Shown here piece by piece: positions 23,541 to 60,184 of a DNA stretch of 64,000 bases. This stretch comes from a virus. The notes below the pieces were generated by a model. The model did no database searches. It had not been told where the DNA came from and worked only from the letters and a program-made list of their open reading frames with translations. Location: positions 1 to 64,000 of the IMG/VR virus record IMGVR_UViG_3300035703_000038, one strand, 5' to 3'. A program made the position numbers and the translations under genes. Every line of letters begins with the position of its first letter. Position 1 is the first letter of the stretch.

Positions 23541-25340
23541 ATGGCTAATGGATTCCTTACAACATCGGAACTAGATTTCCAAAACTACAAATCAAGCCTA
23601 AAAACATTCCTATCTCAGCAGGATGTGTTTAAGGATTACGATTTTGAAGGATCTAACATGGCTGTGTTGCTGGATCTGCTAGCATATAACACCTACATGA
23701 ATGGTGTCTACCTAAACATGGTAGGCAGTGAAATGTTCTTAGACACTTCTCAACTACGCGAATCAATCGTTTCTCATGCTAAAGAGTTAAACTATACACC
23801 ACGTTCTAGAACAGCTGCTACTGCATTTGTTGATATTACAATTACACCATCTGATGCACCTGATTCAATTACAATTCCAAAGTACTACGAGTTGAATGGT
23901 AGAACAGAAGATAACACAACCTACTACTTTACAACTGACGAAGCTGTAGTTATTAGAGCAAACAATGGTGTGTATAAGGCTGCCAATGTTGCTGTATACG
24001 AAGGTAACATTGTAAGAGAAGTATTTGTTGCCAATGCATCAACTCGCTATCTATTACAATCAGCCAATGTTGATATTCAATCAGTAGATGTCACTGTTAA
24101 GGATTCAGCTGCTGCTACAGAAGAAGTCAAGTGGAATAGAGAGACATTCTTGTTTGGATTAGATAACACAGATAATGTGTACTTCATCCAAGGTGCAGAA
24201 GACCACTTGTTTGAGCTTGTATTTGGTAACGGTGATATTGGTAAGTCGTTGGTGGATGGCAATGTTGTTACTGTCAACTATAGAGAAACAAATGGTTTAG
24301 ATGCCAATGGTGTTGAGACATTTACAGCACCTAATGCAATTCAAGGCTATACAAATATTTCTATTGCTACAGTTGTAGCAGCTGCATCAGGCTCCGAACA
24401 TGAGACGGATGAAGAAATCAAATTTAATGCTCCTAGATACTTCCCAACACAAAATAGAGCTGTAACAGTTGAGGATTATATTGCGTTAACAAAGCAAGCA
24501 TTCCCATCTCTAGAAGTTGTTACAGCATATGGTGGTGATGAGGTAGAGCCAAAGCAGTACGGTAAAGTTATCGTTGCTGCTAAGCCAGTTGGTGGCACGA
24601 AGCTCTCTACACCTCTAAAGACTCAGATGTACAACTATCTGAAAGAGAGATCATCTATCTCTATTGACCCAGTTATTGTGGATCCAGAGTACTTCTTTGC
24701 AGAAGTTGTTACTGAAGTTCTATACAATATTAACCTAACAGCGAGATCAGCAAGAGATATCCAGGCTCTTGTGGAAGAAACTATTGCCACATGGGGTAAT
24801 GATAATCTTGAGAAGTTTGGTTCCGATCTAAGATACTCAAAGCTAGTTAGAGCAATCGATGATTGCGAAGATGCTATCATTAGTAATAACACTGAATTGA
24901 GATTGTTCAAACTAATTGAAGTCGATACAGGCATCCCATTCAGAATTTCTCTATCATTTGAAAATGAGCTGAAGCAAGAAATATCCTCGACAAGAAAGAT
25001 TTACGAAGATACAACATCAACAATTGAAACATCACTGTTTACATACAACTTAAACAATGTAGATTATCTTGCCAAGATTAAGGATGACACACAGGGTAAC
25101 CTTGTCCTCGTATCAACTGTTAATGGCCAGGTTCAATTGTTGAAGGATAAGATTGGTACTATTAATTATTTGACTGGTGAACTATCAATTGGTGAGCTAG
25201 TATATGAGGATGTTGGTACCAATGGCGAGCTTGAAATCTACGCAAGAACAAAAAAGCTTGACCTAGAAACAAAAGCCAATAAGATTCTACAAATTGATTC
25301 TGCTCGTCTTGTTGTTACTGTAAATGGTATTAGAGAGTAA
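23541..25340 (+). CDS. 6: Baseplate wedge, gp6-like (599 aa)
   Basis: The N-terminus FLSQQDVFKDYDFEGSNMAVLLDLLAYNTYMNGVYLNMVGSEMFLDTSQ and VSHAKELNYTPRSRTAA are hallmarks of the gp6/gpJ-like wedge family. T4 gp6 is 660 residues and forms the inner baseplate ring as a dimer with gp7. RAVTVEDYIALTKQAFPSLEVVTAYGGDEV in the middle is also typical. The stop overlaps the gp7 ATG as TAATG. Confidence 0.92.
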   Translation: MANGFLTTSELDFQNYKSSLKTFLSQQDVFKDYDFEGSNMAVLLDLLAYNTYMNGVYLNMVGSEMFLDTSQLRESIVSHAKELNYTPRSRTAATAFVDITITPSDAPDSITIPKYYELNGRTEDNTTYYFTTDEAVVIRANNGVYKAANVAVYEGNIVREVFVANASTRYLLQSANVDIQSVDVTVKDSAAATEEVKWNRETFLFGLDNTDNVYFIQGAEDHLFELVFGNGDIGKSLVDGNVVTVNYRETNGLDANGVETFTAPNAIQGYTNISIATVVAAASGSEHETDEEIKFNAPRYFPTQNRAVTVEDYIALTKQAFPSLEVVTAYGGDEVEPKQYGKVIVAAKPVGGTKLSTPLKTQMYNYLKERSSISIDPVIVDPEYFFAEVVTEVLYNINLTARSARDIQALVEETIATWGNDNLEKFGSDLRYSKLVRAIDDCEDAIISNNTELRLFKLIEVDTGIPFRISLSFENELKQEISSTRKIYEDTTSTIETSLFTYNLNNVDYLAKIKDDTQGNLVLVSTVNGQVQLLKDKIGTINYLTGELSIGELVYEDVGTNGELEIYARTKKLDLETKANKILQIDSARLVVTVNGIRE

Positions 25341-27334
25341 TGAGACAACTAGAAAGTTACATTTCACCATTTATTGCTGATCAGTTTCCTTCAATCTATA
25401 AGGAAGAAGGTCCTCTATTCATTGCTTTCGTCAAGGCATACTTTGAGTGGCTAGAATCAAATGGTCAAGTTGTAAATGATTCAAGACGCTTGCTCGAATA
25501 TAGAGATATTGATAAGACAGTAGATGAATTTGTCAACCAATTTAAAAAGAAGTATATGTTCCCTATCCCAGAAGATATTGCTGGTGATAAGAGACTACTA
25601 CAGAAGCACATCAAAGAAGTATACGGATCAAAGGGTACAGAACGTGGCTTGAAGCTTCTGTTCCAGCTACTGTTTGGTGATTCAATCAGTGTCTATAGAC
25701 CTGGCGATGATGTTTTCAGATTATCAGATGGTGATTGGAGTAGAGACATCTACCTCGAGGTTGCCTATAAGCCATTCAATTCACTATTTGTTGGTGAGTT
25801 TATCAGAGGACGTATCTCTGGTGCCCGTGCCTATGTTGCAAGCTTCCAGACAAAATATGTTAATAATAAAAACATTAACATCTTCTATTTAACTGATGTT
25901 CAAGGCAACTTCCTATACGATGAAGTAGTTCTTATTGATGAAAATAGATTGGCACCAGGCGTTGCCCCAGCTGTATCTGCTGTCAACTCACCAAAAATTA
26001 TTGGCTCACTAACAGAAGTAGATGTAACAAATAGATCATCTCCATTTGGATACACAGTTGGTGAACAACTTGAAGTCCAAGGCTCAGGCAAAGGTGGTAA
26101 GGTTGTTGTTACGAGTTTGCAAGAGCTAGATGGTACTGTATCATTTTTCCTAAAGGATGGTGGTTCAGGTTATACAGTCAACACAACAGTATTCACAATA
26201 TTTGGTCCAGTCACAGGTGTTGTGGTAGAGGCTGGTGGCTCAGGATACGCAAATTCTGACTACCTAATATTTTCTAATGGCACATCACTTGGATATGCCA
26301 ATCTTGTAACGAATAGCTCTGGTGGTATTCTCAATAATACTGCAACTGGCCAGACATACTTCTCAGTCACCAATGGTGGTAACGGATTCCAAACAGCACA
26401 GACATCCGTTGTAGTTACCATTGCCAACTCAACTGGTGGTGTATCAGGTGGTGTTGGTGCCAATCTAGTACCTACAATTGCTGGTGGTGGCGATGGCGCT
26501 GCTCTGAGAATTGGTGGGCTATCAGATCTTAAAAGTATATTTGGTTCCATTGTAAAAATTAATGCTATTGGTCAAACTACAACATATCTTCCTACAGCAA
26601 ACAGTTATGATGATATGGTTATTGGTACACCATCCTACCCAACAGGCACAGGCTATGGTTTGTCATCCAACGTTGCTGCTGGCTTTGATACAATCTTGGC
26701 CGATGCATTGGATTACAAAATCTACGAAGTTGGCACAATATCTAAAATCTTTACTGTCAATCCAGGTTCTGATTATACAACAAACTTGACTGTTACTGCT
26801 GTGGATACATTAATTAGTCAGTTTAAATTTTCCGACCAAGAACATCCTGCCGGTAGAGGACCAACTGGTAGTGGTAGACTTGGTAATAATGCCATCGTTA
26901 CGGCTGTTACAGGATTTGGTTCAGATGCACTTGGTTCTGTTAAAGTAATTGACTCAGGCTTAGGTTATGAGCAAAATGAAGAAGTAACTCTTGTATCTCT
27001 TTCAAATACAAACCTTGTTACCTCTGGTACAGCTCTACTTTCAAAGCAGGGTCAAGGTCAAGGTGAGTTCAAATCAACAAGAGGGTTTTTGAGCTCAGAT
27101 AAGTACATACATGACAGTTTTTATTATCAAGACTATTCGTACGAAGTTAGATCGTCAATTGTGTTTAATAAGTACAGTGATCTGTTAAGAAAATTATGGC
27201 ATCCAGCAGGTGTAGAGAAATTTGGTCGCGTGTTGGTAAGTAGTGAAGTAACAGTTGCCACTCCAGATATCAATACACAAGGATATGTTGGTGATGGTAG
27301 CACAACAACGTTTGGCATTCCTGGTGGGGCATGA
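25340..27334 (+). CDS. 7: Baseplate wedge, gp7-like C-terminal-type protein (664 aa)
   Basis: The N-terminal helical region (FIAFVKAYFEWLESNGQVV, then EVYGSKGTERGLKLLFQLLFGDSISVYRPGDD) corresponds to the C-terminal wedge-binding part of T4 gp7 (1,032 aa). The long N-terminal propeller of T4 gp7 is absent. Beta-rich modules follow, and the protein ends VGDGSTTTFGIPGGA. That end is the first strand of a small beta domain whose remainder begins the next gene. The overlap with the next ATG is four bases (ATGA). One extra G in the GGGG at 27,326-27,329 would fuse the two genes. Confidence 0.8.
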   Translation: MRQLESYISPFIADQFPSIYKEEGPLFIAFVKAYFEWLESNGQVVNDSRRLLEYRDIDKTVDEFVNQFKKKYMFPIPEDIAGDKRLLQKHIKEVYGSKGTERGLKLLFQLLFGDSISVYRPGDDVFRLSDGDWSRDIYLEVAYKPFNSLFVGEFIRGRISGARAYVASFQTKYVNNKNINIFYLTDVQGNFLYDEVVLIDENRLAPGVAPAVSAVNSPKIIGSLTEVDVTNRSSPFGYTVGEQLEVQGSGKGGKVVVTSLQELDGTVSFFLKDGGSGYTVNTTVFTIFGPVTGVVVEAGGSGYANSDYLIFSNGTSLGYANLVTNSSGGILNNTATGQTYFSVTNGGNGFQTAQTSVVVTIANSTGGVSGGVGANLVPTIAGGGDGAALRIGGLSDLKSIFGSIVKINAIGQTTTYLPTANSYDDMVIGTPSYPTGTGYGLSSNVAAGFDTILADALDYKIYEVGTISKIFTVNPGSDYTTNLTVTAVDTLISQFKFSDQEHPAGRGPTGSGRLGNNAIVTAVTGFGSDALGSVKVIDSGLGYEQNEEVTLVSLSNTNLVTSGTALLSKQGQGQGEFKSTRGFLSSDKYIHDSFYYQDYSYEVRSSIVFNKYSDLLRKLWHPAGVEKFGRVLVSSEVTVATPDINTQGYVGDGSTTTFGIPGGA

Positions 27335-30300
27335 GCAATATAACGGTTAAAGTAAATGGAGTACTTCAGGTGCTTGGCACCGATTACACCATTTCTGGTA
27401 ACAATGTTGTATTTACGACAGCACCCGCTGCCAATAGTAAAATTGAAATTCGTAAAGAAGCAGAAAGAACTGCAATTGAAACAAGCTTCAAGATCCAGCA
27501 GGTATTCTTAACTCAGCTTGTAACTTCCTATGCAACAGAAACAACTGTTACAACTACATTTGCTACAGCAACTGGCCAGGTCACACTCACAGCTTATGTT
27601 ACTGATGTAGATACATCTAGAACAACCAACTCAGTATTTGGCACTAGCAAATCAACATCAACTAGCTACCCAACAGTATTTAATACTGCATATGGAACAA
27701 CAAAGAACACAGCTTCTCAGTATGTAACGGCTTACGAATCTGGATTCCAAACAGTGACTGTATTTGATACAGATATCAATACGGCTGTTGACACAACAAG
27801 AACAACCAATACAACATTCCCAACCTCTTTGGCTACTGCCACATCACAATCAACAGTTACGGTTGTTAACTTTAACACAACATACAGTACAGACCAGACA
27901 ACAACCACTGCATTTGAGACAGCTTATAGCACGGTATTTAATACAACAACTGCATACGAAACAAATAGAACAACTGTCTTTGATACAAACCTATTAACAG
28001 CAACATCTAGACAGACAGATACATCTAAGCAAACATCTAGCGTATATGACACTACATATTCGTCTTTCTATGCTACAAGTACTACATTTGACACAGTTAT
28101 CAATACAGCTGTCAACACATCCAAGTCAACAGATACAAGCCAGGCTACAAGTAAGTCAACAAATACGACTACAACATTTGTAACTATTTTTGAAACAGCT
28201 GGCTCAACATCAAGAAACACAGCCACTGTATATGACACAGTGTTTGATACAAACAGGTTGACTGGTACAACAATCAATACAACATTTGATACTATTATTG
28301 GCACAAGTAAGGCCACAAGCACATCTAAATCAACAACATCTGTATTCAACACATCAACAACATTTGATACAGTGTTTGATACTGGCTATGATACATCCAA
28401 GTCAACTACATCAGTATTCAATACAACAACGTCATTCAATACTGTATTTGAAACAAACTTTGGCACTACGACTGCTTTTGATACAAACAGAGCTACAGAC
28501 ACATCAAAAAATACTGCTACTAGTAAAAGTACAACAACAGCCTTCAATACAATTACATCTTATGATGTAACTACAACATTTGTTACTGCCTATAATGCTG
28601 CAACTGTTTATATTACGACACAGGGTGCTGACACTGCTAGATCAACAAGCAGAATAACAGATACAAATAGATCCACAACAACTGCTTTTGATACTACAAC
28701 AACTTATGGTACAACATTCTATTTTATTACCAGCAAGCAGACAGATACTAGCAGGCAAACAGATACAAGCAAGAGCACATCAACTGTATTCAATACTATA
28801 ACAGCATACGATACGTTAGTTGCAACTGCTGTTACTAAGAGTACTACAACATCTTTCAATACAATAACAACGTTCAATACAACGTATGATTCCACATACA
28901 ACACAACTTATTCAACAGACTCAGGAACTACACAGCAGACAGACACATACAATAGTGGATCTGGTAACGTAACTGCTCCAGCTGGTGCCACATCCGTAAC
29001 TATCAAGGTTTGGGGTGGCGGTGGTGGCGGTGGCTGTGGTGAAACGCGTAGTGCCGGCGATCTTGGCGGCGGTGGTGGTGGCTCAGGTGCCTATGTTGAG
29101 AAGACAGTTTCTGTAACTGGTGGCTCAACATCATTTTCATATTCTGTTGGTTTAGGTGGTGGTGGATTTGGTAACCCTCCAGGTGCCAATGATGACGATT
29201 CGTTTGCAACAGGTGATGCTGGTGGACAGTCAACTGTAACTGGTACTGGCGTCAACATGGTTGCTCCAGCAGGTAATGGTGGCCAGTGTGCTTATTATGA
29301 TTCATTTGGTGATATTGTAACTGGCGGTGTAGGTGGATTTGGTGGCTTTGGCGCTAGTGGCGGTGATACAAACACGGATGGTAATGCAGGTAACCAGGGT
29401 GGTATAAACTTTGGTGGCCAAGGTGGTAGTGCTCCAAGTGGTGGCACTGGTGGTGCTGGTGGTACAGGTACTGGTGATGGTTCAACTGGTGGCGCTCCAG
29501 GTGCCGGTGGTGGCGGTGGCGGTGAGAATGATGGTAGTGGTGGTAATGGTGCTGATGGTCGCGTTGAGTTTGTTTGGACTATCTCCACAACAACAATCAC
29601 AACAAGATCAACAAGTGTATCGACATCAAAGTCTACAACACTATCAACTGGCACATCTGCATCTACAACAACTGCTTATAGTGTTGACACAGCCTACCCA
29701 ACAAGTAGAACAACATCCACATCTAAGTCAACAACTACTGTATTCCAGACCGCAACTACATTCCAGACAATAACATCATTCAATACTGGTCTTGGTGGTA
29801 CAACAAGCAGGGCTACTGGCACAAGCAGATCAACAGTATCTGTATTCCAGACAACATCGACATATGATACCTCATATGGTACTACATTCTACTTCAACAC
29901 GAGTAAGGGCACCACATTCTACTTTAATACAAGTAGAGCAACTACTGTAGCCCAAGCAACAGGTACAAGTAGAGGCACAACAACTGTATATGATACAAGC
30001 ACAATATTCCAAACATCCACTATATTTGGTACAAGTGCTGCAACCACAACAGTGTTTAATACAGCTAGAGGCACAAGTGCTGTAACAGCAACATCAAAAT
30101 TAACAACAACAGCCTATAATACTGTTGTTGCCACATCTCTTGCAACCAGCAGAACAACAGCAACATCTAAATCAACTACAACTGTATTTGATACTACAAC
30201 TGCATTTGACACAGCTTATGCTACAAGTAGATCAACTGTTAAGAATACAACAACTACATTTGAAACAAACATCAGCACAAATAAGCAGACAGCTACAACA

Positions 30301-33300
30301 TTTACTACAACATTTAATACTGCAGCTGCCACAGGTTTAGCAACATCAACAACTACAACCTATTCAACTGTTTATTCTACAACAACAACTTATAACACAG
30401 GTTACGATACTGCATTTGCAACAAATCGTAATACCGACACATCTGTAATTACAGTTAAATCGACAAGTAAACAAACAGCCTCTGTATTTCAGACTGCTAC
30501 CACATTTGATACAAGCACTGCATTTGAGACTTCTAGATCAACAGTATTTGACACTCTAATTGCTACTAGCACGTCGCGCGATACAGTTATTGGTACTGCT
30601 AGAAGCACACTATCAGCATTTGAAACAACTATTGGTACATCTTCAAATAAGTCAACAACAACTGTCTATAATACAACAACAATCTTTGACACATCAAGAC
30701 AGACAACATCTATATTTGTAACTGGCTATAACACTGCATACGCCACAAACAAGCTAACCAACACGAGTGTGTTCACTACAGGCGTAACAACAATAATTAC
30801 ATCTACGGCATTTGATACTGTGTATGAAACTAACAGAAACACAGCAAGAAACACCACAACTGCCTATGATACAAATTTTGACACAACAACTGCATTTGAA
30901 ACAGTTGTTGATGAATCTAGAAACACAGCCACTGTATTCAATACAAATACATCCTCATCTCTACAAAGAAATACAGATACAGCAATTCTGACTGAATATA
31001 GAATTCTTGCTACACAAACCGTGTATAGCTCAACATACCAGACATTCTATGAAACTATTGCTGGTGTGCTAACATCTGTTGATACAAATGTTACGACAAG
31101 TAAGGTAACAGATACTGCTTATGTTGCTCAGAATAGAAACACGTTACGTGACACAGCATATCAAACAACAAACCCTACTGTAGTTCAGACAAGCACTCTA
31201 GGTAACACAAGTGCCACTGTCATTTTTAACACGACATTTGTAACATATGACACAGCCTTTGCAACTAGCAAGTCAACTACGTCTGTATTCAGCACATCAT
31301 ATGAAACTGTAGCTGGTACATCCAAGTCAACATCGACTGTTTACGATAGTGTATTTGATACAACAAAACAAACAACAATTACGACAGATACAGCTTCACC
31401 AACATCTAGATTGACAGCTTATGGTACAGGCACAAGCAGAACAACAACATCCGCTTTCTCTACAGTCATAACAACGACATATGGAACAGGTTATAATACA
31501 TCTAAGACAACCGATTCTGTCTATGTGACAGCATTCTTAACTGTATCAACATTTCAAACATCACCTCTTACTTCAGTATCTACATTACTGTCTAAGACAA
31601 CAGAGACATCAACGTTCTTTGCTACATCACAAGCAACAGATAAGAATACACTAACAAGCAGATCAACAGTTTATGTAAGTGGTGTATCGACAACTTCTCG
31701 TACAACAGAGTTTGCTACAGCAACATCAATCAATACAAGCTATGATACAAGAAGAGGTACTGATACTACAACTCAATATGAAGGTACGACTGTATTTGCT
31801 ACTGTATATGATACAAATCTAAATGTTGGCACAACAAGAATAACAGATGTTGCTACCTCAACAGCATACAACACTGTTATTAATACAGCAAGAGATACAG
31901 AAGTTGCTACAAGTAAGAATACAACAACAGCATTTGATACTGATACAGCAATACAAACATCATTTGATACAACAATTGCTACACAGTCAAGTTCTAGCAC
32001 TGCCTATGCCACAAACATTAGTACAAGTAAGTCAACAAGCTCAGTATTTGATACAACTTATGAAGTCAATACATCAACTAGCAAGTCAACGACTACTGCT
32101 TATCAAACAATATTCCAAACATCTAGAAATACAAGCACTGCTTATCAAACACTATTCAATACAGTGTATAGGGATACTGCTCTAGATACTGATGTAACCA
32201 CAACTACCGCTAAGGCAACAACTGGTGTAACAGGCACATCCACTATATCTGCAACATCAAGGACAACGACATATATTACAGAAGCACTGACAGATACGAC
32301 GTATCTAATGTCGAGCTCATATGCCACATCTACTGTATTTGAAACAGTTGTAGGATCTTATTACTTGACAGTGTTTGATGGTACGACAACATACGACACC
32401 AACTCTGGTGCTGGTACAATGAAGTCTACTTCTAAAACAACCAGCCTATCAAGAGCTACATCAACATACTTTGAATCAGCTTATGTAACATTGTTCCAAT
32501 CAACAACAGTGTTTGCAACTGATATCACAACAACAGGTATTAAGTCAACAGCAAGCAGATACCAAACAGACCTAGGCCTAGGTACTCTAAGAGACACAAT
32601 TGTCTTTACAAATGTCTACACCTCAACAAGTAAGACAACTGCAACAGGTACTGGCTTCAATACAACAACGACATATGATACTGGTATCCAAGCTGTTACA
32701 GATGTGCTGACTGCCGAAACAAAGAATACATCATATGATACTCTAACAAGATATGATACAGTTATCAACACAACAACATCATATCTATCATCATACTCAA
32801 CAATTGTTGATACGTCAAGAACTACATTAACTTCGACTGCCTTTGATACTTCTAGGGCAACTGCAACCATCTTCCAGACTGACTCTGGTGCTGGTACATT
32901 GCGTAACACATCTTTAAGTACAACAACAGCATTTGAAACTGTGTTTGTAATTACTCAATCATCTAAGTCAACTACAACAACATTCAATACAATTTCAAGA
33001 TATGACACAGCTCTTGATACAGATGTTTCTACAGCTACAAGCAAATCGACAGTTAGTGCTTATACAAGATTTGAAGGTGGTAGAACAACATCAACCGTAT
33101 TCAATACAGGGTATGAAACATTACCATTAGCCATCACAGTTGTTGGTACAACAAGATCAACAGCAACAGTTATTGTTACTGCATACCAAACATCATCTGC
33201 TACAGCTTATGATACAACTAGAGCAACAAACAAAACAACAACTACTGCATTTGAAACAACATACGGTACCGGTATCTTAACGGCAAGAGACACTTATACG

Positions 33301-34158
33301 TCTACAACAACTTCAACTGCATTCTTAACAGAATCAGCAAGATTGACCAATACTGTTTATAAGAACACTGCATTTGATACAGATGTGACAACTGCCACAA
33401 TTACTCAATTTGCTACAGAAACATCAAGAAACACAGCTACTGTTATCTCAACTGATACAACAATATCTACAACAACGGCTGGTGGTGCTACAACATCAAC
33501 TTCGTTCCAAACTGCAACACTAACATCCACATCATTCTATACAACTACTATAACGATTTCTGACTTGTTAACATCTAAGACAACAACAACAGGCTATGAG
33601 ACATCTTCATATATTGATACAACAATAGCAACTGTTTACCAAACATTAACACAAGTAGCCACATTAATTAATACAGTTGGCGTAACTCAGTTTGACACAT
33701 CTAGAACGACAGATGTTGAAATTGACTTCTCTGTTAGAGCAACAAGCTTCCAAACATTGACAGTTGTAGATACGTCAACAGCCTATGTCACCGGTAGCAG
33801 AATCACTCAGCGTTCTACAACAACATTGAGAAATACTGATACAGTTGAATATGTTAGAGATACAACAAGAACATCTGATCCAAATACAGTATACCAGACT
33901 AGCACAGTGTTCCTAACAACTACAGGCTCTGGTCTAGATACAGATAAGGTAACATCAAGACAGACTGACACAGAAAGATCAACATCATTTGTAACGGCCT
34001 TTGATACAACTACAACTTACCAGACAGATTCTGGTGCTGGTACAATGAAGTCAACATCCAAGGCTACAGCAACATCCAGAGCAACTGACCAGCAAGTTCA
34101 GACAAGCTATGATACTGCTATTCAGACAACATATGAAACTGTTTATATAAATAATTAA
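27331..34158 (+). CDS. Giant Thr-rich repetitive structural protein (2,275 aa)
   Basis: Residues 1-45 complete a small beta domain (TVKVNGVLQVLGTDY, SGNNVVF, IEIR). From about residue 50 to the end the protein is a Thr/Ser-dominated repeat in which an aromatic residue, Asp or Asn, then Thr (FDT, FNT, YDT, YET) recurs every 4-12 residues, separated by TSKSTTT-type linkers. A Gly-rich island (about 28,950-29,575) containing the only Cys and Trp I noticed interrupts it. There is almost no Pro. No enzyme motif is visible. Its place between gp7 and gp8 points to a virion fiber, perhaps a beta-solenoid or coiled fibre. I do not recognise the family and no specific function is assigned. Confidence 0.85.
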   Translation: MSNITVKVNGVLQVLGTDYTISGNNVVFTTAPAANSKIEIRKEAERTAIETSFKIQQVFLTQLVTSYATETTVTTTFATATGQVTLTAYVTDVDTSRTTNSVFGTSKSTSTSYPTVFNTAYGTTKNTASQYVTAYESGFQTVTVFDTDINTAVDTTRTTNTTFPTSLATATSQSTVTVVNFNTTYSTDQTTTTAFETAYSTVFNTTTAYETNRTTVFDTNLLTATSRQTDTSKQTSSVYDTTYSSFYATSTTFDTVINTAVNTSKSTDTSQATSKSTNTTTTFVTIFETAGSTSRNTATVYDTVFDTNRLTGTTINTTFDTIIGTSKATSTSKSTTSVFNTSTTFDTVFDTGYDTSKSTTSVFNTTTSFNTVFETNFGTTTAFDTNRATDTSKNTATSKSTTTAFNTITSYDVTTTFVTAYNAATVYITTQGADTARSTSRITDTNRSTTTAFDTTTTYGTTFYFITSKQTDTSRQTDTSKSTSTVFNTITAYDTLVATAVTKSTTTSFNTITTFNTTYDSTYNTTYSTDSGTTQQTDTYNSGSGNVTAPAGATSVTIKVWGGGGGGGCGETRSAGDLGGGGGGSGAYVEKTVSVTGGSTSFSYSVGLGGGGFGNPPGANDDDSFATGDAGGQSTVTGTGVNMVAPAGNGGQCAYYDSFGDIVTGGVGGFGGFGASGGDTNTDGNAGNQGGINFGGQGGSAPSGGTGGAGGTGTGDGSTGGAPGAGGGGGGENDGSGGNGADGRVEFVWTISTTTITTRSTSVSTSKSTTLSTGTSASTTTAYSVDTAYPTSRTTSTSKSTTTVFQTATTFQTITSFNTGLGGTTSRATGTSRSTVSVFQTTSTYDTSYGTTFYFNTSKGTTFYFNTSRATTVAQATGTSRGTTTVYDTSTIFQTSTIFGTSAATTTVFNTARGTSAVTATSKLTTTAYNTVVATSLATSRTTATSKSTTTVFDTTTAFDTAYATSRSTVKNTTTTFETNISTNKQTATTFTTTFNTAAATGLATSTTTTYSTVYSTTTTYNTGYDTAFATNRNTDTSVITVKSTSKQTASVFQTATTFDTSTAFETSRSTVFDTLIATSTSRDTVIGTARSTLSAFETTIGTSSNKSTTTVYNTTTIFDTSRQTTSIFVTGYNTAYATNKLTNTSVFTTGVTTIITSTAFDTVYETNRNTARNTTTAYDTNFDTTTAFETVVDESRNTATVFNTNTSSSLQRNTDTAILTEYRILATQTVYSSTYQTFYETIAGVLTSVDTNVTTSKVTDTAYVAQNRNTLRDTAYQTTNPTVVQTSTLGNTSATVIFNTTFVTYDTAFATSKSTTSVFSTSYETVAGTSKSTSTVYDSVFDTTKQTTITTDTASPTSRLTAYGTGTSRTTTSAFSTVITTTYGTGYNTSKTTDSVYVTAFLTVSTFQTSPLTSVSTLLSKTTETSTFFATSQATDKNTLTSRSTVYVSGVSTTSRTTEFATATSINTSYDTRRGTDTTTQYEGTTVFATVYDTNLNVGTTRITDVATSTAYNTVINTARDTEVATSKNTTTAFDTDTAIQTSFDTTIATQSSSSTAYATNISTSKSTSSVFDTTYEVNTSTSKSTTTAYQTIFQTSRNTSTAYQTLFNTVYRDTALDTDVTTTTAKATTGVTGTSTISATSRTTTYITEALTDTTYLMSSSYATSTVFETVVGSYYLTVFDGTTTYDTNSGAGTMKSTSKTTSLSRATSTYFESAYVTLFQSTTVFATDITTTGIKSTASRYQTDLGLGTLRDTIVFTNVYTSTSKTTATGTGFNTTTTYDTGIQAVTDVLTAETKNTSYDTLTRYDTVINTTTSYLSSYSTIVDTSRTTLTSTAFDTSRATATIFQTDSGAGTLRNTSLSTTTAFETVFVITQSSKSTTTTFNTISRYDTALDTDVSTATSKSTVSAYTRFEGGRTTSTVFNTGYETLPLAITVVGTTRSTATVIVTAYQTSSATAYDTTRATNKTTTTAFETTYGTGILTARDTYTSTTTSTAFLTESARLTNTVYKNTAFDTDVTTATITQFATETSRNTATVISTDTTISTTTAGGATTSTSFQTATLTSTSFYTTTITISDLLTSKTTTTGYETSSYIDTTIATVYQTLTQVATLINTVGVTQFDTSRTTDVEIDFSVRATSFQTLTVVDTSTAYVTGSRITQRSTTTLRNTDTVEYVRDTTRTSDPNTVYQTSTVFLTTTGSGLDTDKVTSRQTDTERSTSFVTAFDTTTTYQTDSGAGTMKSTSKATATSRATDQQVQTSYDTAIQTTYETVYINN
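27540..34140 (+). repeat. Degenerate Thr-codon-rich tandem repeat region
   Basis: The DNA is dominated by ACA/ACT triplets with recurring words such as ACAACAACA, TTTGATACA and ATCTAAGTCAACA. The units are degenerate in length and sequence, so it is not a strict satellite. The Gly island at 28,950-29,575 interrupts it. Plus-strand purine/pyrimidine content differs sharply from neighbouring genes. Confidence 0.8.
34146..34153 (+). promoter_or_regulatory. T4-type late promoter upstream of gene 8, inside the Thr-rich gene's last codons
   Basis: An exact TATAAATA overlapping codons for the final Tyr-Ile-Asn of the Thr-rich protein. The gp8 ATG is at 34181, giving a leader of about 21 bases. Confidence 0.78.
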
Positions 34159-34180: not shown

Positions 34181-36229
34181 ATGTTAACAAGATTCAAGCG
34201 CAATATTGTTGATTGTTTTATAGGCTCAGTGAGTAATACGCTGAGCGTTGAGCTGTCTGGTACTGTAACTGTCAATAGCTCTTGCACAACTGTAACAGGC
34301 ACAGGAACCAATTTCACATCTGATTTTGGTCTAGAAGATAGAATCTATATTGGTTCGCAATCTAGACAAGTAGTTTCAATTGCCAACGATACATTAATGA
34401 CAGTTGGCACACCATTTAGTACAAATGCAGCAGCCAACGTTTACCAAAAGGGTAAATTAGATAATAATGGTTATTATGTTTTTGCAGCCAGACAATCACC
34501 ATATCTAAATGACGATGTTGCCGCAAATACAATTGATAATGATTATGAAGGACAAACATTCCTACATGATGAATTGATGTTTGGTAGGAAGATTACTGAT
34601 ACTGATGTTGTACCAGTAGTTTCAAAAAAGAGCTGGCAGTCAAATACAATCTATAGCATTTACGATGATAAAGATACATCATTAATAGAAAAGAATTTCT
34701 ATGTTATTACATTTGAAAATAAAGTATACAAATGTATCTACAATAACAATGGCTCATCTTCTATAATTGAGCCAAGCCACACGCAGACAGGATTCCCTCC
34801 AGCTGAATCGGATGGATATAGATGGTTATATCTTTACCAGATAACAAATGATCAGCTATTAACATTTGGCACGGATAATTACATTCCTGTATTTGAAAAT
34901 ACAGATGTTAAGAAAGCTGCCATTGATGGTTCTATTTTTAATATCGCTGTAGAAGCTAATGGTTCTGGTTATCCAGCACATAGTGGTGTTATTGGTACGA
35001 CAAGCAATACGCAAATTGTAAAAATTAGCGATAATGCATCAACAGCTAATGATTTCTTTAGCAACTGTGCTATTACAATTACTAACGATTCAACAAACTA
35101 TACGTATGTAAAGGAAATCAGAGATTATGTTTCCAATAATAGTGGTAAGTTTGTTGTTGTAAAAATTCCATTTGCTAATGGACAGATTGCTAACAATAAT
35201 CCATATTCGATTGCACCATATATTAAGATTGAATCAAAGACTGGTTCAAACTGCGTAGCATATGCTGTCATGCAGAATGTTTCAAATACAACATTTGTTG
35301 GTAGCATAGAGTCAGTTGAGATTCTAAGTCCAGGCAGAAATTATAGACAAGCCAATGTAACAGTACAGACATCTGTTGGCTTTGGTTCTGGCGGTGAGGT
35401 TAGAGCAATCATATCACCACCTGGTGGCCATGGGCATGATGTTAAGAATGAGCTATACTGCCAAGCCGTTGGTATTGGTGTTGAGTTCTCAAACTCAGCA
35501 TTGCTAAATTTCTCATCTGATGTAGAATTTAGAACAGTTGGTTTGATCAAGAACCCATTATCAGCTAACACATTAATAACACCAGATGGTGTGGTTAATC
35601 TTGTTGCTAACAGTTTAAATGTTACTGGTTCCCAAACTAAGTTCACCCAGCAAGTAAACATTGGCGATTATTTAATCTATGCAGATGAGGAGAAAGAAGT
35701 TGCTGACATTACTAGCGACACTGCTCTCACATTAAAATCACCATTCTCGTATACAGTAGTTGCTGAATCATACGACGTTAGAAAGAGATATTCAAACTCA
35801 TATTTCAATCAAACTGTGTATGTTACAGCATCCAACACTACACCAACTCTACTCCAGGTTGGAGAGTTTGTGGTTGGTTCAGATGGCGCTGGTGGCGGCT
35901 CTCAGTCGAGGGGTAAGGTTGCATTTGCCAACACTTCTAAGATAGTTCTAACAGGACTAAATAAGAGTGAGACTCGTGGCTCAGCCAATGCAAAGATATT
36001 TGTAAATGACACACTAGTTGAGGGTGTTGGGTATGATGTTACATCAACTGCAACACCATTCATCGCTGCGTCAGGAGCTAAATACTCTAAGGTAGCAGGA
36101 AATAACTACATCACAAGAATACCTGATGTCAAATTATATTCTGGTGAGATTCTATATGTTCAGAATCTACTACCAGTACAAAGATCAAATACAACTAATG
36201 AACAAATTAGATTGATTATTAAGTTCTAG
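34181..36229 (+). CDS. 8: Baseplate wedge, gp8-like, enlarged (682 aa)
   Basis: gp8 features are visible: MFGRKITDTDVVPVVSKKSWQSNTIYSIYDDKD, then FPPAESDGYRWLYLYQIT, and a C-terminus SGEILYVQNLLPVQRSNTTNEQIRLIIKF, close to the T4 gp8 end (SGEMIYMENRPPI...). T4 gp8 is 334 residues, so this is about twice as long. The extra sequence includes two copies of a ~65-residue beta module (34,255-34,452 and 35,580-35,790). A late promoter precedes it. Confidence 0.82.
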   Translation: MLTRFKRNIVDCFIGSVSNTLSVELSGTVTVNSSCTTVTGTGTNFTSDFGLEDRIYIGSQSRQVVSIANDTLMTVGTPFSTNAAANVYQKGKLDNNGYYVFAARQSPYLNDDVAANTIDNDYEGQTFLHDELMFGRKITDTDVVPVVSKKSWQSNTIYSIYDDKDTSLIEKNFYVITFENKVYKCIYNNNGSSSIIEPSHTQTGFPPAESDGYRWLYLYQITNDQLLTFGTDNYIPVFENTDVKKAAIDGSIFNIAVEANGSGYPAHSGVIGTTSNTQIVKISDNASTANDFFSNCAITITNDSTNYTYVKEIRDYVSNNSGKFVVVKIPFANGQIANNNPYSIAPYIKIESKTGSNCVAYAVMQNVSNTTFVGSIESVEILSPGRNYRQANVTVQTSVGFGSGGEVRAIISPPGGHGHDVKNELYCQAVGIGVEFSNSALLNFSSDVEFRTVGLIKNPLSANTLITPDGVVNLVANSLNVTGSQTKFTQQVNIGDYLIYADEEKEVADITSDTALTLKSPFSYTVVAESYDVRKRYSNSYFNQTVYVTASNTTPTLLQVGEFVVGSDGAGGGSQSRGKVAFANTSKIVLTGLNKSETRGSANAKIFVNDTLVEGVGYDVTSTATPFIAASGAKYSKVAGNNYITRIPDVKLYSGEILYVQNLLPVQRSNTTNEQIRLIIKF

Positions 36230-36240
36230 AGGTTCAAAGA

Positions 36241-36774
36241 ATGTCGCTTGATATCGCAAATACAGTTCTAAATGCTTCTCCATACTTCGATGATTTCAAC
36301 GAGGATAAGAAGTTTCATAGAATTTTGTTCAGACCTTCTGTTGCCGTTCAAGCTCGTGAACTAAATCAACTTCAGTCTATTCTTCAGAACCAAATTGAGA
36401 GATTTGGTAACCACATCTTCAAAGATGGTTCAATTATTAAGGGTTGTGGTCTATCATTCCTTGCTCCAAATACAGCTCAAGCAATCGAGTTTGTTTCGAT
36501 TAATGACCAGTTCAACACAAACACATCGCTATCATCAACCAACACACAGTTTGCCAATGCAATTGTTGTTGGTAATACATCAGGCGTTGTTGCTCAGATT
36601 ATTTCAGCAAGAGAAGGCTTCAAAGCATCTTCTACACCAGCTAGATTCTTTATTAAGTATACCCAGCCAGCTGCAAATGGCCAAAGAACATTCTCAGAAG
36701 GTGAAGTTCTAAACATCTACCAGCCTGGTAGTCATTCATTGATAAAGTTATTCTTACAGTTAATACAGCTGTAA
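36241..36774 (+). CDS. DUF4815-like structural protein, N-terminal fragment of a disrupted gene (177 aa)
   Basis: The start SPYFDDFNEDKKFHRILFRPSVAVQARELNQLQSILQNQIERFGNHIFKDGSII is a strongly conserved N-terminus of a large structural protein found after gp8 in marine T4-like phages. After residue ~163 the sequence becomes unrelated (LIKLFLQLIQL) and stops at 36,774. The true continuation reads in the -1 frame from about 36,732. Translation therefore needs a frameshift, or the sequence lacks one base here. Confidence 0.8.
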   Translation: MSLDIANTVLNASPYFDDFNEDKKFHRILFRPSVAVQARELNQLQSILQNQIERFGNHIFKDGSIIKGCGLSFLAPNTAQAIEFVSINDQFNTNTSLSSTNTQFANAIVVGNTSGVVAQIISAREGFKASSTPARFFIKYTQPAANGQRTFSEGEVLNIYQPGSHSLIKLFLQLIQL

Positions 36775-45483: not shown

Positions 45484-45765
45484 ATGGCTATTATCACAAA
45501 AGTAACAGTTGCCAATCAAAGATTGAATGGTGCTGTTACAGTCAAAAATGTAAACGGCGGTCTACAACAAACTAATAAGGTCAATCCTATTAGTGTTGTA
45601 ACTGGTGCTGCCGGTACAAGTGGTAATAGGTTTGATGAGCTACTCGACGTGACTGAAGGTACACCCGCCAATGGCGATGTTGTCGTATATAATGCTTCAA
45701 ATGATAAGTACGAAGTAAAAAGTTTAAGCAATACGTCAATAACGCTTGACGGAGGCACGTTCTAA
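45484..45765 (+). CDS. Short fiber-type protein ending DGGTF (93 aa)
   Basis: The middle carries FDELLDVTEGTPANGDVVVYNASNDKYEVKSL, a small beta module common in tail fibers, and the protein ends SITLDGGTF. The next gene also ends in DGGTF. Such short fibers may be hinge or base subunits. It is separated from the next ATG by one base. Confidence 0.75.
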   Translation: MAIITKVTVANQRLNGAVTVKNVNGGLQQTNKVNPISVVTGAAGTSGNRFDELLDVTEGTPANGDVVVYNASNDKYEVKSLSNTSITLDGGTF

Positions 45766-45766
45766 A

Positions 45767-48187: not shown

Positions 48188-48197
48188 GGAGTAGATA

Positions 48198-48416
48198 ATG
48201 GAAAATAATGAATTTAGTGAGAAATTGATTGCTGCTTATAGAGCTAACTGGCTGGAAACAATGGCCCAGCTAGTTGTTCTAAAGACACAACTAGATATAG
48301 TAACAGATAAACTAACTGCTAGTAGTAAGCTGGTAGAAGAATATCAAAAGCAGATACAGATTGAAGCAGCAAAAGCTAGACCTGCTCAGCAGGCACCAAA
48401 ACAAGAACAGAAATAA
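48198..48416 (+). CDS. Small coiled-coil protein (72 aa)
   Basis: An N-terminal amphipathic coiled coil (KLIAAYRANWLETMAQLVVLKTQLDIVTDKL) is followed by a Gln/Ala/Lys-rich tail. It probably binds a fiber or the baseplate. It is the last gene before the terminator at 48,435. TAAGGAG at 48,185-48,191 is its ribosome-binding site. Confidence 0.7.
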   Translation: MENNEFSEKLIAAYRANWLETMAQLVVLKTQLDIVTDKLTASSKLVEEYQKQIQIEAAKARPAQQAPKQEQK

Positions 48417-48434
48417 GCTTCAAATCTCAACTAG

Positions 48435-48467
48435 GGCTACGTATAAATAGATACGTAGCCTTTTTTT
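48435..48467 (+). terminator. Intrinsic terminator with embedded late promoter
   Basis: A perfect 10-bp stem GGCTACGTAT/ATACGTAGCC with loop AAATAG is followed by TTTTTTT. It ends transcripts coming from the fiber block starting at 45,461. Confidence 0.88.
48442..48449 (+). promoter_or_regulatory. T4-type late promoter inside the terminator hairpin
   Basis: TATAAATA spans the end of the 5' stem arm and the loop. Transcription from it would start inside the 3' arm and yield a leader of about 25 bases before ATG 48480, without the 5' arm, so the new transcript cannot form the terminator. Confidence 0.75.
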
Positions 48468-48479
48468 ATAGGGTTTGAA

Positions 48480-52286: not shown

Positions 52287-52297
52287 GGAGTAGGGTA

Positions 52298-54862: not shown

Positions 54863-57800
54863 ATGGCAACAAAGTTTCAGATTAAAAGAACGTCTGTATC
54901 TGGACGTACGCCTAACACAACAAATTCTGCAAACTCATCTTATATTGCAGCAGGCGAGCTTGCCTTAAATTTAACTGATAAGAAGATGTATTCTTCTAAT
55001 GGTACCAATTATTTTGAGATTGGTGCTTTCAAAGTTGAACTAATTAATTCTACTTCAAATGTCTCCACATTCACTGAGATTTCAACACTCCAGTTTGATG
55101 AGGATAGTGGCTTTGATGTAACAAGCCCATCAGCTGGCGTCGCCAAAGTTGCGATGAATAGCACATTCAAGTACTGGCAGGTTGATGGCACAACAGAGCT
55201 TACAGCAACTGGATTAGATACTGTAAACTTCATTAGTGGTGATAATATTACTATCACTGCAAATGGTGCCAACACTCCTCAGTCAATTGCATTCTCGACA
55301 TCACTTACACCAACATTTACATCACTAACTGTCGGCAATAGTACTGTTAACACTGTCGTCAACTCTACGGCGATTGCTGTATCTAAGATCTTTGCCAATG
55401 GTGGTGTTGGTTCAAGTGGCCAGGTTCTAACATCCAATGGTACTGGTATCTATTGGGAAGATAGTACTGGTGCTGCATTTTCCGTATCAAGTGAAACATT
55501 TAATGCTAATGGCTCAAACACCCAGTTTACATTAGCACAGACAACAACATCACTTGAAACATTTGTGTTCTTAAATGGTGTTGCCCAAATACCAACAACA
55601 GATTATTCCATATCTGGTACAACTCTAACATTTGTAGTAGCACCATCAAATGGTGATGTTATTGAAGTTAGAACAATTAACATTCCTACTGTATCAGGTA
55701 TTACATTTACATTAGATAGTTTTACAGGTAATGGTAGCAATACAAACTACACATTATCTACAGCATTATCGTCTAACACAACTACGTTTGTTTATTTGAA
55801 TGGTGTCGCTCAAGTACCAACTACAGATTATGGTGTAAGTGGTTCAACGTTAACCTTTTTATCGGCACCGCCAAACTTGGAGCAGATTCGCGCATTAACT
55901 ATTAATCCAACTGGCGATTATGCATCTGATTCATTTACTGCAAATAGTACAGTTAATAATAATTTTACATTATCTATTCCAACAACAACATTTAGAACCT
56001 TAGTATTCATTAATGGTGTTGCCCAAGCTCCATCTATAGATTATATTGTAAGTGGATTGACATTATCATTAACAAATAATGCCGCCGCCAATGATGTTGT
56101 TCAGGTAAGATCATTTTATGAAGAACCAAGTGCTAGTGGTGCCAATACAACAATCCAATATAATGCATCAAGCAGACTAAAAGGTTCACTTGGATTTACA
56201 TTTAACGAAACAACAAATAATGTAACAATTGGTAACACACTAACTGTTCCAAACCTAAGAATTAATGCATCAAACCCTCCAGCAAATTCAACTTCAACCG
56301 GCTCTACTGGTACAGTTGCATGGGATAGTGATTATCTATATGTTGCAGTAGGAACAAATACTTGGAAGAAAACACCAATTACAACTGATGGTGCCGGTGG
56401 TGGTGGAGGCAGTGCCAACACAGCTGGTGCCAACACAGAAATCCAATTTAACGATAGTGGAGTACTTGGCGCTAATAATAAATTTACATTCAATAAAGAT
56501 ACATCAACACTAGCTGTTGGTTCAAATGTAACTGTTAACACAAGCACCATCTTTATTGGTAACAGCTCTGTTAATACTACAATCACTGCTGGTAATGTTC
56601 ATCTACAGGGCACCCAGCTAACAGTTGGTAATGTTGTATTAACTGGCGAACAAATTACTATTGGTAATAGTACAGTGAATACTGTATTTACAGCCAACTC
56701 ATTTGGCCTTGGTATGGCAAGACAGTCATTTGCTGGCAATGGTTCAAACACGCAGTTCACCCTGTCGGCAGAACCAACAAATGAAAGTCATACTCTTGTG
56801 TTTGTTGATAGAGTAATTCAAAGAGATTCTGATTATAACATTGCAGGTGCAGTACTAACATTTACATCAGCACCAGATAATGGATCTGATATTGACGTTT
56901 ATGTGGCACGTGCTGGTGTATCAGCAGGTCCAAGTGTTGGATATAGTGTAACAAGAAATGAATTCACTGGTAATGGTTCTAATACAAACTTCTCATTATC
57001 GGCAGCTCCGCAGTCTGAGTCCCATGTATTGGTATTTGTTGATGGTATGATTCAAAGGGATTCAGATTTTACTATATCTGGATCAACACTAATATTTGTG
57101 GCAGCACCAGATAATGGATCTGAGATTCAAACATTTGTATATCAGAGTGCAGTTGCTCTTGCTGGTGGCTCAAATACAAATATTGTATTTAACGACTCAA
57201 CAGCAGCTAATGGTTCAGCTGGCTTTACATTCAACAAAACAACAAATAATGTTACAATTAGCAACACATTAAGTGTTGGTAATAGTACCGTCAACACAAC
57301 CATACGTCCTAATGGTGCAACATTCAGTGGTGATCTAATGCCATCTGCTAATGTTACCTATGATATTGGTAACTCATCAATGAGATGGAAAGATTTGTGG
57401 TTATCTGGTTCAACAATCAATCTTGGTGGTGCTTCCATTAAGACTGACACTGATACTGGTGCCATTGCTCTCATCCCAAAGCCAACTGTTGCTAATCCAG
57501 ATCCAGTTGCTATGGTCGTATCACCAACCGGTGGTATTACATCTGTACCAACAACAGGGGGTGTTCCGGCAGCAAATGCTGTTGCTGAGGCTGCAGAGTC
57601 TAATACAGCATCTCCTGTTCCAATTGATATCACGTCCACAGCACCAGCAAATGGTCAGGCTCTAATTTGGAGTTCGTCTGCTAATACATTTGTTCCTGGT
57701 AATGTTGCAGCAGGCGGTGCTTCATCCGATATTCCAAAGATTACTGGTCTTGTATATCCTAGTGATGATACTGCTGCCAACACATCTGGCGGTCAGACAG

Positions 57801-60184
57801 TGTATATTAGCGGATCTAACTTTGCTGCAAACTGTGTTGTGTATATTAATGGATCAGCTGCACCATCAATTTCTTTCATTAGTTCGAGCAATGTTGGCTT
57901 TACTACTCCGGCACTATCAGCTAACATATATCCAGTATATGTAATTAATCCAGGCGATGGTGCAACTGCAATCCACATTCCTGGGTTGAATGTATCTGGT
58001 GTACCTAACTGGTCAACTGCAGCTGGCAGCCTTGGAGACGTGGATGCAGCCAGCTCCTGGAGCTTCAGCGTATCTGCTACAAGTGACTCAAATGTTACAT
58101 ATACATTAGCTGGTGGCAGTTCGTTGCCAACTGGTATTACTCTAGCATCTAATGGTCTAATTAGTGGTACAATGTCATCGCCACCTGGATCTGAAACAAC
58201 GTACAATTTCAGTGTTGTTGCTACGGACGGTGAAAACCAGGATGCTTCAAGATCATTTAGTGTGACTGTATCATTATTAGATCCATATTTTTACTTAACC
58301 ACTTTGCTTGTCCACGCAGATGGTACCAATAATCAAAACAACCATGCCTTTGTAGAGTCCACAGCTAATAATTTAACCATTACACGAACAGGCACTCCAA
58401 CACAGGGAAGCTTTAGTCCATTTAGTCAGACTGGATGGGGTGCATATTTTGATGGAACTGGTGACTATATTAGAAAATCAGGTAGTGGTGTTTTGACAGA
58501 TTCTGGTAATGTTACAATTGAATGCTGGGCCTGGCCATTAACTTCGTCTGTTATAGGATTGTTTGATGGTGGACCTGGTCAAGCAACCATCTTAAGAAAT
58601 TATCCTGCAAACAATATTGGAAAGCAGGGTGGCAATACCATCAGTTTTACAATGACGCAAAACGCTTGGAATCATTTAGCTTTGACTGTTACTAGTGGTG
58701 GCACTGCAACACTGTATATTAATGGAGCAAGCGTAGGGACATCATCGTTTGGGTCTTATAGTGGTGGTAGTAATTTTGATATAGGAACTATTAATGGTGG
58801 TGGCGATGGCGCCTTCAATGGGTTTATTTCAAACTTTAGAGTAACTAAATCCATCGTTTACAGTGGAAACTTCACACCCTCGACCACTCCTCTAACTGCA
58901 ATCTCTAACACATCACTATTAACCTGCCAGTCTAATAGAGTTATCGATAACTCTACAAACACATACGCGTTAGCTCGTAATGGTGATACTAAGATAATTC
59001 CATTCTCACCATTTGCTCCATCGGCTGCATACACTGGAGCAGGTATTGGTGGCTCCGTCTATATTCCTGCAGGTACAAATGGATTAACTGTAGCAAGCGT
59101 TCCAACAATTGGATCAGGAAACTTTACTGTTGAGGGTTGGTTCTGGCCAACTAATGATACTGTTCGTTCAGAATTTGACTCTGCATGGTGTACAAATGCT
59201 GGCAACTTCAATGGTACAGACTCAATGCAAGGAGCTGTGAGAAGTAACCATGTAATTTTCAGATCCAATGGCACATCCGATATAACAGCTTCTGTGTCAA
59301 TAGCAAATCAATGGAGTCACATTGCATGGGTCAGAAATGGCACAACAGTAACCATATATGTAAATGGTACATCAGTGGTATCTGGAACATACAGCAATTC
59401 GTTGGCTGGAGGAAATCTTTTCATTAGCCGTCCTGACTCAAATCAATTCAGGTTTAATGGTTGGATTTCCGGATTCAGAATTTTAGCTGGAACTGCACTA
59501 TATACTGGAAACTTCACGCCACCAACTTCTCCACCAACAACAATTGCTAATACTATTGCATTACTCAACTTCACCAACGCAGGCATCTTTGATCAAACAG
59601 CGAAGAACGTTCTTGAAACAGTTGGCGATGCAAAAGTCAGTACAGCACAGTACAAGTATGGTACTGCATCGATGTATTTTGATGGGACTGGTGATTATTT
59701 AAAAATTCCAAATACACCAGCATTTAACCTTTCTGCTGGAGATTGGACAATTGAGTGCTGGATAAATTTATCTGCCCTCACCGCAGAAGCGCGTATATGG
59801 TCACTTGGAACATATGGATCAAATCCTGAAGTTGCTTTGCTTATCGGTGGTGGTGGTGCTGGTGGAAGTTCGAACGATCTTCAATTTAATTACCTTGGAA
59901 ACTCAACCTTAATAACTGCATCTAGTGTTAATTCTACAGGCGTATGGATGCACGTTGCTGTTGTCAGATATTCAGGAACTACAACACTGTATGTAAACGG
60001 AGTTTCTAAAGGAACAACTGCAACAAACCCCTGGACTTCTTCATCGACGAGTTTTTGGATTGGCGGTTGGTCACAAAACAATAACCAAATGACTGGATAC
60101 ATTGACGATCTTCGCATCACCAAAGGTTATGCTCGCTATACATCTAACTTTACACCACCAACATCAGCATTCAAGAATAGGTAA
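54863..60184 (+). CDS. Giant tail fiber/adhesin with IPT and LamG-like modules (1,773 aa)
   Basis: The N-terminus MATKFQIKRTSVSGRTPNTT is a fiber attachment module. Next are five copies of a ~65-residue beta domain (start FxGNGSNTQFTL, core VFVNGVAQ...DYxxSG), GNSTVN-type shaft repeats, an IPT/TIG domain (PKITGLVYPSDDTAANTSGGQTVYISGSNF), and a He_PIG domain. Three LamG/concanavalin-like domains end it (FDGTGDYI...VTIECWAW; VEGWFWP; FDGTGDYL...WTIECWIN), a fold that binds glycans. It is likely the main host-recognition protein. The next gene begins seven bases later. Confidence 0.86.
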   Translation: MATKFQIKRTSVSGRTPNTTNSANSSYIAAGELALNLTDKKMYSSNGTNYFEIGAFKVELINSTSNVSTFTEISTLQFDEDSGFDVTSPSAGVAKVAMNSTFKYWQVDGTTELTATGLDTVNFISGDNITITANGANTPQSIAFSTSLTPTFTSLTVGNSTVNTVVNSTAIAVSKIFANGGVGSSGQVLTSNGTGIYWEDSTGAAFSVSSETFNANGSNTQFTLAQTTTSLETFVFLNGVAQIPTTDYSISGTTLTFVVAPSNGDVIEVRTINIPTVSGITFTLDSFTGNGSNTNYTLSTALSSNTTTFVYLNGVAQVPTTDYGVSGSTLTFLSAPPNLEQIRALTINPTGDYASDSFTANSTVNNNFTLSIPTTTFRTLVFINGVAQAPSIDYIVSGLTLSLTNNAAANDVVQVRSFYEEPSASGANTTIQYNASSRLKGSLGFTFNETTNNVTIGNTLTVPNLRINASNPPANSTSTGSTGTVAWDSDYLYVAVGTNTWKKTPITTDGAGGGGGSANTAGANTEIQFNDSGVLGANNKFTFNKDTSTLAVGSNVTVNTSTIFIGNSSVNTTITAGNVHLQGTQLTVGNVVLTGEQITIGNSTVNTVFTANSFGLGMARQSFAGNGSNTQFTLSAEPTNESHTLVFVDRVIQRDSDYNIAGAVLTFTSAPDNGSDIDVYVARAGVSAGPSVGYSVTRNEFTGNGSNTNFSLSAAPQSESHVLVFVDGMIQRDSDFTISGSTLIFVAAPDNGSEIQTFVYQSAVALAGGSNTNIVFNDSTAANGSAGFTFNKTTNNVTISNTLSVGNSTVNTTIRPNGATFSGDLMPSANVTYDIGNSSMRWKDLWLSGSTINLGGASIKTDTDTGAIALIPKPTVANPDPVAMVVSPTGGITSVPTTGGVPAANAVAEAAESNTASPVPIDITSTAPANGQALIWSSSANTFVPGNVAAGGASSDIPKITGLVYPSDDTAANTSGGQTVYISGSNFAANCVVYINGSAAPSISFISSSNVGFTTPALSANIYPVYVINPGDGATAIHIPGLNVSGVPNWSTAAGSLGDVDAASSWSFSVSATSDSNVTYTLAGGSSLPTGITLASNGLISGTMSSPPGSETTYNFSVVATDGENQDASRSFSVTVSLLDPYFYLTTLLVHADGTNNQNNHAFVESTANNLTITRTGTPTQGSFSPFSQTGWGAYFDGTGDYIRKSGSGVLTDSGNVTIECWAWPLTSSVIGLFDGGPGQATILRNYPANNIGKQGGNTISFTMTQNAWNHLALTVTSGGTATLYINGASVGTSSFGSYSGGSNFDIGTINGGGDGAFNGFISNFRVTKSIVYSGNFTPSTTPLTAISNTSLLTCQSNRVIDNSTNTYALARNGDTKIIPFSPFAPSAAYTGAGIGGSVYIPAGTNGLTVASVPTIGSGNFTVEGWFWPTNDTVRSEFDSAWCTNAGNFNGTDSMQGAVRSNHVIFRSNGTSDITASVSIANQWSHIAWVRNGTTVTIYVNGTSVVSGTYSNSLAGGNLFISRPDSNQFRFNGWISGFRILAGTALYTGNFTPPTSPPTTIANTIALLNFTNAGIFDQTAKNVLETVGDAKVSTAQYKYGTASMYFDGTGDYLKIPNTPAFNLSAGDWTIECWINLSALTAEARIWSLGTYGSNPEVALLIGGGGAGGSSNDLQFNYLGNSTLITASSVNSTGVWMHVAVVRYSGTTTLYVNGVSKGTTATNPWTSSSTSFWIGGWSQNNNQMTGYIDDLRITKGYARYTSNFTPPTSAFKNR
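57424..58287 (+). repeat. Duplicated fiber module, copy 1
   Basis: This segment encodes GGASIKTDTDTGAIALIPKP through the IPT/TIG and He_PIG domains (SFSVTVSLLDPYF). It is clearly homologous to 60,262-61,107 over about 285 residues, with long identical stretches such as SDIPKITGLVYP and SSNVGFTTPALS. Confidence 0.85.

Follow-up and report, generated by a model that had tools for sequence, protein, structure and literature searches.

A Thr-lattice protein between gp7 and gp8 of an uncultured T4-like phage and a predicted adaptor domain divided at the gp7 boundary

In an uncultured T4-like phage, a threonine-rich protein (hereafter, T-protein) is encoded between the baseplate wedge genes gp7 and gp8. 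At the sequence level, the tail of gp7 and the first ~45 residues of the T-protein together form one predicted beta domain, of the type found at the N-terminus of T7 gp17 and in XD2 of T4 gp10, that is split between the two genes. With modest confidence, we favor a reading in which the T-protein would be a beta-structured fiber or cable borne by the wedge on the gp7 C-terminus, translationally coupled to gp7 and docked on it via the two halves of this domain. The DNA analyzed (hereafter, the window) was a stretch of 64,000 nucleotides within a virus record of 101,244 bases.

The sequence-only reading had proposed a Thr-rich frame of 2,275 residues at the gp7-gp8 junction, and this was borne out by the open reading frame and by PHROG matches on both sides of it (Table 1). 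The wedge operon had a T4-like order, specifically gp25 (called by similarity to annotated relatives), gp6, gp7, the T-protein, gp8, and then a DUF4815/VrlC-like protein. The concern that the region might be an artefact of collapsed or expanded repeats was dismissed on two grounds. Tandem Repeats Finder exposed just two tandem arrays in the T-protein gene, each <50 bp, such that its DNA is almost without tandem repeats and reads would not collapse. Moreover, the same junction was present in 18 loci (the window and 17 further viral loci), representing 11 clusters at 95% identity, and the order gp6-gp7-T-gp8 was common to six full-length relatives, in which the T-protein comprised 1699-2251 aa.

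Table 1. Features of the gp7-gp8 region and of a related tail gene, in window coordinates.
Feature	Position	Strand	Basis or remarks
T-protein gene (Thr-lattice protein)	27331-34158	+	ATG start, 2275 aa, single terminal stop
gp7, baseplate wedge subunit	25340..27334	+	phrog_17744, E 6e-136; last ~28 residues, ending TPDINTQGYVGDGSTTTFGIPGGA before the stop, are the first part of the PF03906/XD2-type domain
gp8, baseplate wedge subunit, downstream neighbor of the T-protein gene	34181..36229	+	phrog_438, E 3e-79
Start/stop overlap ATGA	27331..27334	+	T-protein start codon overlaps the gp7 stop, -1 frame
T-protein head, aa 1-45, second part of the split PF03906/XD2-type adaptor domain	27331..27465	+	Profile score; AlphaFold2, four beta strands
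Thr-lattice shaft, first part, aa 61-535	27511..28935	+	Register; ortholog alignment
Gly-rich island, aa 541-755	28951..29595	+	PF21722 Gly_rich_2 match; presence/absence in orthologs
Thr-lattice shaft, second part, aa 786-2275	29686..34155	+	Register; conserved C-terminus YDTAIQTTYETVYINN
Tail protein with five uninterrupted copies of the domain split at gp7/T	54863..60184	+	hmmsearch; AlphaFold2 of copy 1, pLDDT 83

When the gp7 tail and the T-protein head were joined, the sequence matched the T7 tail fiber N-terminal domain (PF03906) at 30.3 bits (cutoff 25.2), over residues 13-76 of the joined sequence, with the gp7/T junction at residue 28. The head alone scored 21.7 bits, below the cutoff, and the gp7 tail alone gave no match. 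A solved K1 depolymerase structure likewise aligned across the junction. A profile of the joined sequences recovered uninterrupted copies of the domain elsewhere in the same phage; the tail protein (Table 1) has five, and an ORF at ~67.2-68.3 kb of the record has another three. Using one of the intact copies from the tail protein, rather than the split pair, for fold comparison, we obtained an AlphaFold model with strands at residues 13-20, 27-29, 37-43, 54-57, 60-63, and 72-79. Alignment assigns the first two of these to gp7 and the remaining four to the T-protein, in agreement with the model of the head itself (strands 4-8, 19-22, 25-28, and 38-42, pLDDT ~82). In VIA-align comparisons the intact copy resembled the T7 gp17 N-terminus (7boz; Z 9.0, rmsd 3.3, 71 aligned residues), TSP4 of phage CBA120 (7rfv; Z 9.6, rmsd 2.7, 68 aligned), and T4 baseplate chain 5iv5_AC (Z 7.1, rmsd 2.4, 76 aligned), which was taken to be gp10 based on its length of 602 residues and published XD2 similarity. 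Foldseek E-values for the same copy were 7e-3 or weaker. In TSP4, the first and last strands of XD2 are antiparallel neighbors (PMC8825819), so by analogy the final strand of the T-protein head would have the gp7 strand as its partner.

The division of the domain between two frames was conserved in all 18 loci. Each gp7 ended in GD...PGG[AS]-stop, with a motif like YIGDGSTTTFAIPGGA followed by TGA, and the T-protein start shared bases with this TGA in the -1 frame, as ATGA in 16 loci and GTGA in two, so that the overlapping stop and start expected for termination-reinitiation were retained throughout. The base preceding TGA, a four-fold wobble position in gp7, was A or G in 11/11 clusters, compared to 44% of such gp7 sites, as would keep the start codon; the corresponding chance (0.44^11, ~1e-4) is indicative, because the clusters are related and independence is thereby overstated. 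Codon positions 1 and 2 were conserved across the junction and position 3 was free, and, judged from this pattern, both halves of the domain are under purifying selection there. An upstream GGTG could be the ribosome site.

Among relatives, which apart from cultured Stenotrophomonas phage DLP6 were metagenomic contigs, three arrangements were found at this junction. The most frequent was that of the window and the 17 further loci, with a separate gene and split adaptor. In two contigs (L060, L064) and DLP6 the repeat was fused to the gp7 C-terminus as one polypeptide, while in L029 a separate gene had a different head. In all carriers the gp7 wedge domain had a common ending (HPAG.E.FG or similar), after which the repeat followed. 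The Thr-lattice was absent from Cr30 and phiM12, as well as from the gp7 regions of pf16, SRB7757, BUCT-ZZ01, RHph_I1_18, vB_OspM_OC, and XG4. The suggestion that a long fiber or cable is attached to the wedge is thus well supported, both by the fusions to gp7 in DLP6 and L060/L064 and by the domain that straddles the gp7/T boundary here. Neither this divided domain nor the fusions were visible to the sequence-only reading.

The T-protein was 30.5% Thr, 11.6% Ser (42% together), and 0.66% Pro, and its two Cys and two Trp (aa 561, 569, 653, and 749) all fell within the Gly-rich island (~aa 540-755), in accord with the original impression that Pro is almost missing and that Cys and Trp are confined to the island. 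The repeat had been described as aromatic-[D/N]-Thr units. The motif [FY][DN]T was indeed enriched, with 70 occurrences versus 6.4 in shuffled sequences (shuffle maximum 15). No single repeat length was seen; units of four (xBoT) and six residues (xBoTxT) were mixed, and the true regularity had a period of two. The fraction of Thr at the majority parity was 0.78 in the first part of the shaft and 0.73 in the second, versus 0.57 in shuffled sequences (sd 0.01-0.02), far outside every one of 2000 shuffles. Thr autocorrelation alternated in sign out to 30 residues, with even distances positive from four onward and odd distances negative. One parity held Thr and bulky F/Y/K/R, with some V/I/L, while the other held S, T, A, N, D, V, and G. 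The register shifted at a few places in the second part of the shaft (near aa 1241-1256, 1458-1464, 1623, 2007-2015, and 2151). The simplest reading of this register is long, two-faced beta-strands. In several homologs, bulky positions were preferentially spaced 14 and 18 residues apart, with 16 avoided. As for a fixed coil length, this 14/18 preference was weak, and the order of the four- and six-residue units gave no single period.

Residues 1-535 shared 55-72% identity with orthologs on three viral contigs (L119, L107, and L045), and in the alignment with these the invariant columns past aa 60 were nearly all Thr at odd positions. Repeat dN/dS was ~0.2 in comparison with L119, the nearest relative, and 0.27-0.39 for L107 and L045, and gap lengths in pairwise alignments of aa 61-520 were even, with one exception. 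From these alignments we conclude that the Thr-lattice is a structure under selection.

AlphaFold on aa 1-535, with four sequences, gave a confident model for the first 42 residues and no fold for the shaft (pLDDT ~25). The sequence-only reading had raised a possible beta-solenoid; regular beta structure is in keeping with the two-residue register, but the solenoid itself gained nothing from AlphaFold, which assigned no confident fold, or from the mixed unit lengths. Pfam, PHROGs, and the PDB, the last searched by profile with the shaft, yielded no match to the repeat, and the whole T-protein matched no PHROG family at E 0.001, a search in which bias filters may hide distant matches. A tblastn search of phage records with the whole protein returned nothing and missed even DLP6, likely due to low-complexity masking, and the DLP6 repeat used as a DNA query matched DLP6 alone. 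A whole-protein search for related loci was similarly empty, while a degenerate Thr-rich DNA pattern succeeded and exposed many Thr-lattice ORFs in viral contigs. A gp7 search of bacterial genomes gave no host, and no description of such phage repeats was found in open-licence papers.

The Gly-rich island interrupting the shaft matched PF21722 (Gly_rich_2) over aa 543-749 at 31.7 bits (cutoff 24.3). An insert of this type occurred at the same place in L045, L107/L138, L131, and L146 and was absent from L133, L143, L144, and L149, while DLP6, L029, and L060 had other inserts in the lattice. This distribution fits an exchangeable binding module, for which the inserts are possible candidates. The insert of DLP6 gp7 (~aa 590-740) is non-repeat and, by eye only, has the look of a carbohydrate-binding module.

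In the build that we favor, the ribosome would end gp7 at TGA and, after stepping back one base, restart at ATG or GTG, giving two chains. Strands one and two would come from the gp7 tail and the remaining four from the T-protein head, the two chains docking as they complete one fold between them, with the Thr-lattice as the putative shaft and the Gly-rich insert, where present, as a candidate binding module. The T-protein would then be in the virion at about one copy per wedge, with a presumed role in host contact. T4 gp7 is a monomer, present six times per tail, in baseplate pins with gp8, gp9, and gp10 (PMC3004832). A repeat fused to gp7, as in DLP6, necessarily occurs once per gp7, and completion of a single domain probably preserves this geometry in the split type. 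The shaft would then be a cable formed by one chain of ~1,970 residues. Calculated at 0.33 nm per residue, its length in a fully extended state could reach ~650 nm; a coiled shaft could measure tens of nm. A more specific version, in which the lattice is an undescribed fibrous beta fold forming a single-chain cable, one per wedge, held by a stop/start-coupled XD2-type joint with two strands from gp7, is tentative and rather less likely than not. XD2-type domains are usually trimeric (PMC8825819), such that a one-to-one joint with a monomeric gp7 would be unusual, which counts against the favored reading, as does a shaft for which AlphaFold found no fold; the split halves might also not associate.

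Alternatively, programmed -1 frameshifting close to the end of gp7 could explain the same junction; it would yield a covalent gp7-fiber fusion with an intact adaptor and leave the ATGA start incidental or secondary. A frameshift would suit the relative frames of the two ORFs, joining them gives an uninterrupted domain, and relatives have a true gp7-repeat fusion; however, no slippery heptamer (X XXY YYZ) was conserved before the gp7 stop, where gp7-frame wobble bases varied up to the stop itself, and the consensus RNA fold at the junction was weak, with little covariation, such that we do not claim a conserved structure. Together with the retention of a start codon at the overlap in all loci, these observations favor termination-reinitiation and two chains, and we consider the frameshift unlikely. 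The split domain might instead be the relic of an old fusion, with the T-protein attached at another site, such as alongside other fibers, or not in the virion at all. The T-protein does have its own start, and the phage has other fibers, among them a second Thr-lattice protein, but the purifying selection on both halves at the junction and the conserved gene order make this improbable, the most doubtful of the readings considered.

As for the shaft, the Thr-rich chain might be a flexible, mucin-like brush, heavily O-modified on Thr and Ser and lacking a regular fold, as its Thr and Ser content and the absence of structure in the AlphaFold models would allow. Mucin-like rods are rich in Pro, Thr, and Ser and have no positional register, whereas here Pro is nearly absent and Thr keeps a strict parity across hundreds of residues. 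Invariant Thr columns and gaps of nearly always even length are not needed by a random coil, and a brush is accordingly quite unlikely. The register, invariant lattice, even gaps, and dN/dS fit a beta-structured fiber, rather than a mucin-like coil.

As a rule, phage fibers are trimeric and attach by way of adaptor proteins, and in T4 XD2/XD3-type modules carry gp11 and the short fibers, while gp10 adjoins gp7. The closest known system is DLP6 gp7 (AMQ65900.1, 1288 aa), with 50% identity in the wedge domain followed by a Thr-lattice with a non-repeat insert directly before gp8, but it is one fused chain without a split adaptor, its repeat is shorter, and its insert is not Gly-rich. The T7 gp17 N-terminal domain is matched above the Pfam cutoff by the joined sequence, and in fold by the intact copy, yet in the window the domain is divided between two genes. 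The XD2/XD3 modules of T4 gp10 and CBA120 TSP4 have the same beta-domain fold but belong to separate trimeric proteins, while here half of the module is on gp7 itself. The new point is the gp7/T joint. If true, a fiber sharing domain halves with a monomeric wedge protein would make a different kind of virion joint, and its two halves a natural split-protein pair. The lattice recurs in many viral contigs and poses a testable question, how a chain with Thr at every second residue folds, which is accessible because DLP6 is a cultured phage with the fused form.

Other Thr-lattice proteins share the lattice grammar (30-43% Thr) but have a different, VNDxGTLR-type N-terminal domain and are not located beside gp7. 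One is in the same phage, outside the window, at ~68.5-72.1 kb of the record (G000:C1; L014), with 1172 aa from stop to stop, 35.6% Thr, and a VNDGGTLR-type N-terminal domain. A widespread family in viral contigs (L022, L035, L052, L067, L086, and L106) was 36-43% Thr, most members having N-terminal repeats like VNDSGTLR; among isolates, the only match was a weak one, to the head, in Pectobacterium phage ZF40.

Elsewhere in the window, three large neighboring ORFs (813, 1268, and 829 aa) in the tail region at 45746-54787 had no PHROG match. The DUF4815/VrlC-like gene (36241-37050) contained one frame change near 36755-36774, either a genuine lesion or an indel from sequencing or assembly, and was a single ORF in L129, L131, and DLP6.
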